Source: Bacteroidota bacterium (GTDB lineage Bacteria; Bacteroidota; Bacteroidia; UKL13-3). Taken from it: a stretch of DNA of 64,000 nt. A program made the position numbers and the translations under genes. The stretch spans positions 25,310 through 89,309 of the forward strand of contig JAIXSO010000049.1 in NCBI GenBank assembly GCA_027484685.1. The letters run 5' to 3'. The notes below the pieces were generated by a model, which worked only from the letters and a program-made list of their open reading frames with translations, did no database searches and was not told the DNA's origin. Every line of letters begins with the position of its first letter. The stretch's first letter is position 1. Below are positions 4,538 through 63,367 of the stretch, piece by piece.

Positions 4538-4555
4538 ACTTTTTCCCTCGCGGCT

Positions 4556-4640
4556 ATATTGATATGATTAGCGAAGCGTTATTGGGATTTGTTATGAAAT
4601 ATCGTGTCAGATAGTTACGAACAGCAACGCAATTGCTTAG
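4556..4640 (+). repeat. Degraded copy of dispersed multi-hairpin element ('TTAGCGAAGCG' family)
   Basis: ttagcgaagcgttattgggatttgttatgaaatatcgtgtcagata aligns with the copies at 50.07 and 63.3 kb. Confidence 0.6.
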
Positions 4641-4668
4641 CGAAAAAACTATAAATTGTTTGAAATTT

Positions 4669-5241: not shown

Positions 5242-5418
5242 TATACTTGCTGATTTTAAAATTTCCATTCAATTTGTTTTAAATAAATTACTCAAACTTA
5301 AAGTGTTTTATCGGTAAAATAAAATTTTTGCCATTATAGCATTAAAACAAAACACCCACCAACTTATCAACCCATACTCAAAAAACAAAAAAATAGTTTT
5401 TCTTTGTACGTTCAAATC

Positions 5419-5880
5419 ATGAGTAAAGATAAAGCTTACAAGCGCATTAATATTGTAAATAAAAAAGCAAGTTTTGAGTTTCAACTATTAACCAAATACA
5501 CGGCCGGAATGGTATTAGGTGGTACTGAAGTAAAATCTATCAAAGCTGGAAATGCCTCTATTACAGAAGCTTTTTGTTATTTTAGAGATAATGAGCTTTA
5601 TGTTAGGAATATGAATATTGGTACTTTTAAACAAGGAACCATTTATAACCACGACCCACTTGCGGTACGTAAACTTCTTTTGAAAAAGGTAGAACTAAAA
5701 AAGCTGCAAAAACGTGGCGAAGAAAAAGGTTTTTCCATTGTTCCCCTTAAATTATTTGAAGCCGAAAATGGTTTTATAAAAATAGAAATTGCGCTTGCAC
5801 AAGGTAAAAAAGCCTTCGATAAACGCGAAACCATCAAAGAACGAGACATTGAACGAAATTTGAGACGAAAGGACGAGTAA
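5419..5880 (+). CDS. smpB: SsrA-binding protein SmpB
   Basis: NKKASFEFQLLTKYTAGMVLGGTEVKSIKAGNASITEAFCYF...KRETIKERDIERNLRR. Confidence 0.95.
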   Translation: MSKDKAYKRINIVNKKASFEFQLLTKYTAGMVLGGTEVKSIKAGNASITEAFCYFRDNELYVRNMNIGTFKQGTIYNHDPLAVRKLLLKKVELKKLQKRGEEKGFSIVPLKLFEAENGFIKIEIALAQGKKAFDKRETIKERDIERNLRRKDE

Positions 5881-44469: not shown

Positions 44470-44693
44470 ATCCATAGAGTTAGCAAAAGTTATATAGATT
44501 TAAATTAAAAGGTAGTGTAACTGGGAGTCAAATTCAGAAACTATTAGCTAATAAACCATAATGGTTAATGATTTTTTTGTATGTAAATGAGTTTACTTTC
44601 CAATAGGAATATGACTCTTTTTCATTGGCTAATTCGTAGTCAGATAGCTATCGGACATCCCTTCATATTCCATGCACACAAGACTACGAATAG
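44470..44693 (+). repeat. Dispersed multi-hairpin element, copy B
   Basis: ATCCATAGAGTTAGCAAAAGTTATATAGAT...TTCGTAGTC...AAGACTACGAATAGT. Confidence 0.75.
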
Positions 44694-44849
44694 TTGCCTC
44701 TAAAGAAGTAAGCGATACAAAAGAACTAATTCAATAAATAGCGTTGGCATAAGTATTTTAATTTTTAAAATATTTAAAAAAAATATTGCGAAACCAAAAA
44801 GTTGCATATATTCGCAACCGATTAGTTTCATAATAAAATAAATTAACAC

Positions 44850-47509: not shown

Positions 47510-47532
47510 CAGAAACTACTGCCAAACCCACC

Positions 47533-47632
47533 ATCCGTATAGTTAGCAAAGCGCTCTAAGGGTTTATAATTAATGCATTTTCCCAAGGCATGAGCTAGTT
47601 AAGTAAAGTAACTTGTTGTTTGTTTAGCTGAG
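47533..47632 (+). repeat. Dispersed multi-hairpin element, copy C (partial)
   Basis: ATCCGTATAGTTAGCAAAGCGCTCTAAGGGTTTATAATTAATGC...GAGCTAGTTAAG. Confidence 0.65.
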
Positions 47633-47667
47633 CATCATCAACAAGAACAGTTGTAGTTTTTTTTAAA

Positions 47668-47771: not shown

Positions 47772-50051
47772 ATGGAATACTATCTCTCAAAATTAAATCC
47801 TAGGGAATTCGAATCTTTATCAAGCGATATTATATCGAAAACCTTAAATATATATGTTGAAAAATTTAAATCTGGAAAAGATGGTGGAGTTGATGGTCGG
47901 TTTTGGATAGGTAAAGGAGAAGGGATATTGCAATGTAAGCATTATTGGAAAACTGGATATAAAGGATTAATAAGTCAGTTAAAGAATGAAGAAGTTGGTA
48001 AAGTTAAAAAATTGAAGCCCAGTAGATACATTTTTATCACCTCTGTTTCCTTATCCAGAGAGAATAAAAAAGAGATTCTCAACATTTTTTCTCCATATAT
48101 AAAAACAGAAACAGACATTTGGGGCGAAGAAGATTTGAATTCTTTTTTATCAGATAAAGAAAACCAAGAAATAGTTGAAAAGAATTACAAGCTTTGGATT
48201 ACGAGCACCAAAGTGCTGGATATCCTATTTAATAATGCAATTAAAGGTAGAAGTGAAAGTACAATTAAGTTTATAGAAACTCAGGCAAAAAAATACATTA
48301 CAACTGAAAATCACGAAAAAGGGTTGGAAATATTAAAGGAAAACAATGTATTAATAATTTCTGGAGAACCTGGAATAGGAAAAACAACACTTGCTAATAA
48401 TATTGCATTGCTTTATACAGCAAATGGATTTGAGTTTTGCGATATTGAAGAGTCTATAAGTGAAGCAGAGAATATATTTAGAGAAAAAGAAAAGAAGAAA
48501 ATACTCTTCTACTGTGATGATTTTTTAGGTAGTAATATGTACGATGCTATTAGTAATAAGAGAGATTCTCACATCGTAAAATTCATTAATCGCGTAAAAT
48601 CAGATAAAACGAAGAAATTTATCTTAACATCTCGCACAAATATATTAACTAAGGCAATTAGACTCAGTCATCAATTTCAGAATAATGACATTAAAGAAAA
48701 TGAGTTATTATTAAAAATTGAGAATTTATCCGAATTAGATAAAGCAAAAATTCTTTATAACCATATTTATCATTCAAATATAGATGATACCTATATAGAC
48801 CAAATATACACTGACAAAAAATATAAAGAAATAATAAAGCACAAAAATTTTAATCCTCGGATTATTGAGTTTATAACTGATAACAAAAAAGTAGAAAATG
48901 TTAACCCTCAAGACTATTGGCAATTTATTAATAATAAACTTGAAAATCCTGAGGATATTTGGAGTGACTTTTTCCAAAATCAATTAGACGATTCTGTTAG
49001 AGTTCTTTCATTTCTTACCGTTTTTAACGGACAAGATATTAAAGAAAATGAATTAAATATTTCATATTCTAATTTTAAGAATAATTATGGAATATCGTAT
49101 ACAGATAACACAGATCATAGTTTTTCAGCGGTTATAAAGCTTGCAATTAGTTCATTACTCAACAGAAATCAACGTTCTGGTAATTCATTTGAATATTCAC
49201 TTTTTAATCCTTCTATTGGTGACTTTATATTAAATACATATCTTAAAGACATAGATTTAATCATATCAATTTTAAAATCGCTGGCAAATTGTTCATCATT
49301 GGAGTATTTGATTGGATTAAGTTTAAATAAAAAGATTCCTAAAAATGATATCAAACGAATACAATTTGAATTATTTACACAATTATATGACAGTAAAGTT
49401 ATTGAGCAAGAATGGGATTATTTGATTCTTTTATCCTATTTAGACCCTTTAAATTCAAAAGTAAGACATTTTATAAATAAATTCTTCTCTCATCTAATCG
49501 AACAAGATGATAGCTCTGGCAAAAAATTATATGAGCTCTTAGTCATATTAGATTGTTTTCAAACTGATATCGAACTAAAAAAATCTTCTTTCTTAAAAGG
49601 GTTTATAGAAGAAAAATACTTGGATAATGATGATATTGAAAAACTATTTAAATTCCTTAAAGTCTATAATATAAAAGATGAGTCAATAATCCTTCAAATT
49701 GAAGAAAAAGTTCATGAATATCTTGTTGACACCCTTAAAGACGAATCGGGTTCGGTTGAGATTAGCAAGCATTTTGTGAGAGGATACGAGGAGTTTGATT
49801 ATGACGTAGATCATTCTGGTATAGAGTCAGATTTAAGTTCATTATTGGATTCAATTATTTCAAATTTTAAGGCACCAAATTTCAATTTAATAAAAATTGA
49901 TGACTCAGAGATACTCTCAAATATTGATATTGATAGGATGGTTGAGAATTTTTACAATTCTTATGGAGGAGTCGAAGATAATTTTAGAGTTTCTAAGTAT
50001 TCTGATTCAAGTTTAGATAATGATATAGATGCTATTTTTGAGCGAAATTAG
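47772..50051 (+). CDS. Mrr-like restriction endonuclease fused to a STAND-type P-loop NTPase (anti-phage defence candidate)
   Basis: N-terminus FKSGKDGGVDGRFWIGKGEGILQCKHY (D...QxK nuclease core); Walker A ISGEPGIGKTTLANNIA; Walker B ILFYCDDFLG; KFILTSRTNIL. Confidence 0.85.
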   Translation: MEYYLSKLNPREFESLSSDIISKTLNIYVEKFKSGKDGGVDGRFWIGKGEGILQCKHYWKTGYKGLISQLKNEEVGKVKKLKPSRYIFITSVSLSRENKKEILNIFSPYIKTETDIWGEEDLNSFLSDKENQEIVEKNYKLWITSTKVLDILFNNAIKGRSESTIKFIETQAKKYITTENHEKGLEILKENNVLIISGEPGIGKTTLANNIALLYTANGFEFCDIEESISEAENIFREKEKKKILFYCDDFLGSNMYDAISNKRDSHIVKFINRVKSDKTKKFILTSRTNILTKAIRLSHQFQNNDIKENELLLKIENLSELDKAKILYNHIYHSNIDDTYIDQIYTDKKYKEIIKHKNFNPRIIEFITDNKKVENVNPQDYWQFINNKLENPEDIWSDFFQNQLDDSVRVLSFLTVFNGQDIKENELNISYSNFKNNYGISYTDNTDHSFSAVIKLAISSLLNRNQRSGNSFEYSLFNPSIGDFILNTYLKDIDLIISILKSLANCSSLEYLIGLSLNKKIPKNDIKRIQFELFTQLYDSKVIEQEWDYLILLSYLDPLNSKVRHFINKFFSHLIEQDDSSGKKLYELLVILDCFQTDIELKKSSFLKGFIEEKYLDNDDIEKLFKFLKVYNIKDESIILQIEEKVHEYLVDTLKDESGSVEISKHFVRGYEEFDYDVDHSGIESDLSSLLDSIISNFKAPNFNLIKIDDSEILSNIDIDRMVENFYNSYGGVEDNFRVSKYSDSSLDNDIDAIFERN

Positions 50052-50069
50052 CGCATAAGAGCACCTACT

Positions 50070-50205
50070 ATCCGTAGAGTTAGCGAAGCGCTTTACGGAT
50101 TTATAATGAATGTAGTGTCTCTGACATGGGCTAATTATAACGAGTTACAGTCCGAATGCTTTCGTACACCAACGCAATTGTACAGCTCTCAAGACTACGA
50201 ACAGT
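50070..50205 (+). repeat. Dispersed multi-hairpin element, copy D
   Basis: ATCCGTAGAG-TTAGCGAAGCG-CTTTACGGAT, GTGTC-TCT-GACAT, ...AAGACTACGAACAGT. Confidence 0.8.
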
Positions 50206-50260: not shown

Positions 50261-50660
50261 TGCTATATCCAAATTTAGCGCCTGCCTAAAATTTCTGTTT
50301 TACTTATAGTTAACCAATGAGTATCCCCTACTCTATTACTATTATTGGTTCCTAACTTTTCAACTTGGTAAAAATTTATTTAATACCGCTTTGAAGTATG
50401 ATTTAGTCCAATTTATTTTTAGCTCCCGAAAGCTTTCGGGAATAATACCATCTAAGATTTACCCCAAACCCATTGGCCTAATTTGTAAATCAAAATGGTA
50501 TAACCTAAAAAATACCAACAAGGCTTCTAAATAGCTCTTCATTTCAATGGCTGCCTTACATGTGATAAATACAATTCTATTCTTGTTTGATGTAAAATTT
50601 TAAAACGCCATTTCAAACACCTTTGTAGTGAATAATATTCAACCATTTTATTACCTCATT

Positions 50661-63048: not shown

Positions 63049-63175
63049 ATGGGGTAGTTGGGGTTGGTTTAGAAAAATTCAGCTAGTGGGTTTTCCTAAA
63101 TCAAACAAAAATCCCGTAGGGATTTACTTATGGTAGCAAATAATGAATTATCTACACCATTGCCTTGGAAGGCCC

Positions 63176-63324
63176 ACTGTTCGTAGTCTTGTGAGCAAGA
63201 CAGTGGGGTTGATGACTACGAATTAATAAATGAAAAATAGTTTGCAACTCGTTTTTAACTAACCCGTGTCGGAGACACTACATTTCATTACAAATCCTTA
63301 GAGCGCTTCGCTAACTCTAAGGAT
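63176..63324 (-). repeat. Dispersed multi-hairpin element, copy F (best preserved, inverted)
   Basis: Minus strand: ATCCTTAGAG-TTAGCGAAGCG-CTCTAAGGAT, GTGTC-TCC-GACAC, TTCGTAGTC...GACTACGAA. Confidence 0.85.
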
Positions 63325-63367
63325 ATTAATGTGTTTCGTTAACTTATAAAAAACAGTTGTGAGGTTT

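Follow-up and report, generated by a model that had tools for sequence, protein, structure and literature searches.

The dispersed hairpin elements in this stretch of 64,000 nucleotides (the window) are, with a probability that we put at about 0.9, non-autonomous miniature elements, comparable to MITEs and REPINs, of a transposon encoding a RAYT of subclass 2.6 (group 5), and they would be moved as single-stranded DNA hairpins. The parent element would consist of hairpins H1 and H2, a RAYT gene in antisense, and hairpins H3 and H4, bounded by ACTATCC...GGATAGT, and the miniature form would be this parent with the gene deleted and the gene's last bases around the stop codon kept. The best copy in the window is a complete RAYT-less element of 151 bp with four hairpins, which occupies the minus strand of 63176-63326 and is made up as follows:

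63176..63326, minus strand: complete RAYT-less element, scoring 161 bits with the covariance model (match extent 63176-63327)
63294..63324, minus strand: outer 5' hairpin H1, ATCCTTAGAG-TTAGCGAAGCG-CTCTAAGGAT, read from the sequence; 8 of 10 pairs show changes on both sides
63229..63289, minus strand: AATGAA (63284-63289) pairing with TTCATT (63229-63234), the inner portion of the terminal inverted repeat
63266..63278, minus strand: inner hairpin H2, GTGTC-TCC-GACAC, with GTA just before it; adjoins the RAYT stop codon in RAYT-bearing copies
63238..63250, minus strand: inner hairpin H3, GAGTT-GCA-AACT(A); on the RAYT start-codon side in RAYT-bearing copies
63180..63222, minus strand: outer 3' hairpin H4, TTCGTAGTC...GACTACGAA, read from the sequence; one pair covaries as T:A/C:G/G:C

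Read 5' to 3' on the minus strand, the order is H1, TTGTAATGAAATGTA, H2, GGGTTAGTTAAAAAC, H3 (GAGTTGCAAACT), a TTTTTCATT stretch and H4. The three stems given in the preliminary description, namely the perfect 10-bp ATCCTTAGAG/CTCTAAGGAT stem of H1, GTGTC-TCC-GACAC and TTCGTAGTC/GACTACGAA, are present in the sequence as described; the fourth hairpin (H3) and the AATGAA/TTCATT inverted repeat had been missed. The inverted-repeat ends of the family read ACTATCC(G/T)TAG…CTACGGATAGT, and in place of the true termini ACTATCC...GGATAGT the 63.2-kb copy has AATATCC...GAACAGT. Across copies the left end follows the pattern ACTATCCGTAG-loop-CTACGGATTT, then AATGAA, and the right end is the reverse complement of that pattern. 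The element is near-palindromic overall and both of its strands match the covariance model. The fold of the 63.2-kb element is better than that of 199 of 200 dinucleotide shuffles, with z-scores of -3.55 under DNA and -3.18 under RNA parameters, and a GC-GAA-GC tip can form inside the H1 loop.

A covariance model trained on 18 full-length copies was run on the window with filters off, and it recovered all six copies named in the preliminary description, the one at 61.3 kb only marginally. Besides the 63.2-kb element these are:

50067..50205, plus strand: RAYT-less copy with H1-H2 plus the 3' arm of H4, H3/H4 being partly rearranged; 89 bits
47530..47651, plus strand: degenerate copy, chiefly H1; 42.8 bits
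44467..44694, plus strand: degenerate copy with additional internal sequence; 36 bits for 44540-44694 and 45.4 bits over the whole
4555..4659, plus strand: degenerate copy; 25.5 bits
61316..61424, plus strand: marginal remnant, H1 loop region; 16.7 bits, E-value 0.03

The preliminary description had made its proposal depend on further copies in the genome, and such copies exist: there are 19 genome-wide matches by blastn and 41 by the model, the latter including opposite-strand echoes, and at least 20 distinct element places are listed in the source genome (G000). Extending the covariance-model search to relatives, as had also been suggested, recovered copies in every genus-mate searched and in G013 as well as in the genome itself. 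In DNA searches the element was present in 10 of 10 genus-mates tried and in G013, which belongs to another genus of the same family; the covariance model found no element in G011, and the DNA search of other genera gave nothing except one weak, probably chance match in G028. Most of the named relatives are metagenome-derived assemblies from Bacteroidota. Subfamilies with CCGAAG…CTTCGG, CCGTAG…CTACGG and CCTTAG…CTAAGG are common to several genomes.

Pairing is strongly conserved in this family. In an alignment of 40 distinct copies 90.7% of the pairing cells are paired, and 13 of 36 pairs show a two-sided change at least once. Two-sided changes amount to 57 cells as against 19.4 ± 4.6 in shuffled alignments, with 0 of 500 shuffles reaching 57, a result that is strong but, coming from related copies in an alignment fitted to the structure, falls short of a formal R-scape test. 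When the partner column is slid by 1-3 positions, paired cells fall to 36-44% and two-sided changes to 10-20 cells. The best covarying columns are T:A/G:C/A:T and T:A/A:T in H1, T:A/C:G in H3 and T:A/C:G/G:C in H4, and the covarying changes partly mark the subfamilies. Thus the covariation anticipated from the first six copies held with more of them. The pairs T:A, G:C and A:T reported earlier for stem position 5 in three of the copies are correct, with the qualification that the 44.47-kb stem among them is degenerate, having two mismatches and one G-T.

A stable fold with compensatory changes, together with the intergenic location of the confident window copies, could be taken to mean that scattered loci encode a structured non-coding RNA or riboregulator, one of the two readings offered in the preliminary description. 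We consider this very improbable. An Rfam scan of the window gave no match, and wobbles on the written strand show no strand-specific excess (31 G-T versus 38 A-C). Furthermore, the element is near-palindromic, so that both strands fit the model, copies sit in unrelated contexts and also inside another repeat, and in six genomes a transposase gene is enclosed by these hairpins. Nothing speaks for an RNA function in preference to transposon ends, and the data do not call for a structured RNA. The other reading in the preliminary description, that of a single-stranded DNA hairpin mobilized by a RAYT, is supported, given that a full-length copy holds a RAYT gene and that this arrangement recurs in five other genomes.

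That full-length copy lies outside the window, at C71:67146-67865 of the same genome, and is split between H2 and H3 by a gene for a 185-aa RAYT; the window itself contains no RAYT gene. Its layout is H1-H2-GGGCTAATTA, the RAYT gene on the minus strand, and AACGAGTT-H3-H4-GGATAGT, the gene thus running on the strand opposite to the element with its stop codon formed by the CTA of GGGCTA. The protein matches Pfam Y1_Tnp and, with 95.2 bits, passes the cut-off of 80 for the NF047646 REP_Tyr_transpos family, which supplies the RAYT gene that the preliminary description had proposed to look for. It fails the IS200 family NF033573 (28.7 bits, cut-off 55), on which ground membership in IS200/IS605 was rejected. 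While a phmmer search of PDB with the single RAYT sequence gave no match, the best solved relative in a profile search is the E. coli TnpAREP 4er8 (3e-7), and a fold search with the AlphaFold model (mean pLDDT 81) likewise ranks 4er8 first (3e-6), followed by IS200/IS605 enzymes. The conserved motifs are NHIH, FWQ, YLHxNP and SS (YSS); N60, H61, H63 and Y146 are invariant in 25 proteins, with 83 residues from H63 to Y146. RAYTs (TnpAREP) of subclass 2.6, which is group 5, are described as Bacteroidota proteins of about 179 aa with NH[LIV]H, WQ, YIH[QN]NP and SS motifs and about 82 aa between HuH and Y (PMC6006769), and the C71 protein, placed by its motifs and lineage, fits this subclass.

The source genome has other RAYT-like genes on C33, C22 and C62 (L029, L030 and L031; 52%, 44% and one broken), at least two of which are flanked by hairpins of other sequence, so that several RAYT families coexist in it. 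It also carries nine strong Y1_Tnp genes on contigs C12, C31, C66, C49, C1, C10, C28 and C71 (152-178 aa, 73-100 bits), which are probably ordinary IS200-type transposases alongside the RAYTs.

Orthologues of the C71 RAYT were found in G002 (98% identity), G007 (90%), G013 (85%), G003 (77%) and G005 (76%). In these five genomes the gene is enclosed by the hairpins known from C71, whose order and orientation are unchanged, with H1/H2-type hairpins on the stop side and H3/H4 on the start side, the exception being the RAYT-bearing copy of G002, which is without H1. G001, G004, G009 and G010, all draft assemblies, have many element copies and no close RAYT (best 30-50%); given these four genus-mates, the link between element and RAYT is not one-to-one. 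Among more distant RAYTs, with 46-72% identity, from Pedobacter, Parapedobacter, Fulvivirga, Segetibacter, Mangrovivirga and others, most are flanked by hairpins on both sides, often one outer and one inner per side, with sequences differing from those of the family studied here. At 17 of 28 loci the longest exact inverted repeat common to the two RAYT flanks exceeds that in every one of 40 shuffles; this measure does not register the diverged ends found in this genus and hence understates the pattern. In one genome three RAYT-bearing copies of about 770 bp (L114, L115 and L124) are 90-94% alike. They end just beyond the outer hairpins, their flanks are unrelated and no target duplication is visible, so that in this genome the RAYT-bearing unit has moved as a whole.

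The inverted-repeat ends and miniature size would also suit a MITE mobilized by an ordinary DDE transposase, in which case the RAYT would be a bystander. We find this hardly credible, since in several genomes the RAYT is found within the element at identical junctions and other RAYTs of the subclass share the layout with other sequences. Moreover, 0 of 40 copies have a target-site duplication of at least 3 nt directly at their ends, while DDE-type MITEs have duplications of fixed length, and membership in that class was rejected. The 3' flank of these 40 copies favors RGGG.

Several observations point to movement of the element within this genus. A REP-like repeat 3' of tatD is intact in G000 and G004, while its copy in G007 is interrupted by a full element. 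As judged from these sequences, the polymorphism between close relatives at the tatD repeat is insertion, the order of events in G007 being ambiguous: there the interrupted repeat copy follows a duplicated 330-bp tatD fragment between two same-orientation elements. This duplicate of the 3' part of tatD (L225:2700-3120, on contig C27 of G007) could possibly reflect mobilization of neighboring DNA. The repeat interrupted in G007 (GCAAGCGTCCGCTTG...; L012:3560-3670 and 5367-5480, and L226) is unrelated to the element and adjoins the RAYT-bearing copy. The RAYT-bearing copy occupies the tatD locus in G000 and G002 and an arsR-like locus in G007; the arsR-like site of G000 has the degenerate 44.47-kb copy, and the orthologous G007 site the RAYT-bearing form. 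In G002 a RAYT-less copy adjoins the RAYT-bearing one, with the same palindrome insert in H2 and nearly the whole of H4 in common; it is 94.9% identical to the right arm of its RAYT-bearing neighbor, and that arm is 92.9% identical to the G000 arm. Of 12 RAYT-side arms, 6 (one of them a tie) have their best RAYT-less match within their own genome. Gene-less copies retain bases of the 3' end of the gene around the stop codon (CTAATTA), which suggests that they arose through internal deletion of the parent element.

Copies neighboring each other within 6 kb have the same orientation in 25 of 25 pairs, which are incompletely independent and could alternatively owe this to local tandem duplication. 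Copy orientation agreed with GC skew in 21 of 36 regions, giving no signal of lagging-strand targeting. The C58, C4 and C46 loci, searched for empty sites, were rearranged or already occupied, with no clean empty site, and at the 63.2-kb site G002 and G004 diverge at about 63080-63094, around 80-100 bp before the element, and are hence uninformative.

Several window copies (50067, 47530 and 61316) lie close downstream of stop codons and many copies are degenerate, as might be expected if they were immobile RAYT-derived hairpins that the host had retained or put to new use as terminators or mRNA stabilizers. As the sole account of the family this exaptation is very unlikely, given that near-intact copies and insertion polymorphism in close relatives, and closely matched RAYT-bearing and RAYT-less copies in one genome, point to recent activity. 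It is nevertheless compatible with the transposon explanation, and old copies may serve the host as terminators or mRNA ends.

For a RAYT-mobilized element, we envisage that single-stranded ends would fold into hairpins, that the RAYT would recognize H1/H4, and perhaps H2/H3, in single-stranded DNA and cut one strand through the tyrosine Y146, as TnpAREP and the IS608 and ISDra2 enzymes do, and that the excised or copied strand would be reinserted without target-site duplication. The hairpin bound, the position of the cut and a RAYT that is still working are inferred. E. coli TnpAREP requires a bulge (PMC8266576), and the GAA tip of H1 with its unpaired TTA may recall this bulge, as a resemblance only.

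An element of this kind has been published, in that subclass 2.6 genes are described as flanked by loosely defined 'atypical secondary structures' (PMC6006769), and related structures may be among those of the survey itself. The likeness to the account of the subclass given there extends to the presence in Bacteroidota, a protein of about 180 aa, the matching motifs and flanking hairpins with copies elsewhere in the genome. Unlike in that account, each flank here resolves to two hairpins, the two sides together making up terminal inverted repeats, and what is dispersed is the entire element with its four hairpins; the motifs of the subclass are said there to lack a GT[AG]G consensus, while GTAG here occurs inside the H1/H4 stems or directly before H2. 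What is added here is the full anatomy, the matched RAYT-bearing and RAYT-less copies and the insertion polymorphism. Like REPINs or BIMEs, which are paired inverted REPs, this is a short non-autonomous repeat with two inverted hairpin ends and a link to a RAYT, but it has two hairpins per end rather than one REP of 20-40 bp, and tens rather than hundreds of copies per genome (PMC3116915). The external 5'-GTAG foot of classical REPs was not found on the elements, and in contrast to the 20-40 bp hairpin of those REPs the unit here is a 150-bp one with four hairpins; it has the inverted hairpin ends and RAYT link of REPINs, but its units are not classical REPs. TIRtrons or TIRYTs similarly have a RAYT-like gene in long terminal inverted repeats, which are in some cases self-complementary and also occur as repeat families; in the accessible part of that survey Bacteroidetes figure only for CGTC repeats, which had no known transposase (PMC3733652). 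IS200/IS605 elements share the Y1/HUH enzyme, the subterminal hairpins and the lack of target-site duplication, and differ in that the protein here scores below the IS200 and above the RAYT NCBIfam cut-off and that the element is without TnpB.

RAYTs are commonly regarded as the first bacterial transposases to have been domesticated, housekeeping-like, with REPs as possible passengers (PMC8266576). We tentatively entertain the different and rather less than even prospect that the group-5 RAYTs of Bacteroidota are live single-strand transposons, in which the gene would travel within its four-hairpin element and give rise to spreading copies without the gene, and might take along neighboring host DNA or accessory genes flanked by same-orientation copies, such as the candidate defense gene between the 47.5- and 50.1-kb copies. 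Since a single genus displays the ends, both forms (with and without the RAYT) and the insertion polymorphism, substrate recognition and movement by group-5 RAYTs are directly testable.

The candidate defense gene (47772-50051, plus strand) encodes a 759-aa protein with Mrr_cat and nSTAND3 domains that matches the PADLOC candidate defense family PDC-S73 (E-value 6e-246). It lies between the same-orientation copies 47530-47651 and 50067-50205 and no DNA match listed for the relatives extends over it. A perfect 16-bp palindrome, TCCGAWAGCTWTCGGA (with center variants TA/TA and AA/TT), occurs 18 times in the genome versus 0 for a reversed control pattern (for example at L004:1703-1718, at L239 and at window positions 50426-50439); it is often in the loops of element hairpins (H2, H3 or H4) and also elsewhere, often extending another palindrome. 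Finally, a moderately repeated sequence, L010:4264-4524 on contig C4 of the source genome, begins 2 bp past the end of an element and recurs in relatives.
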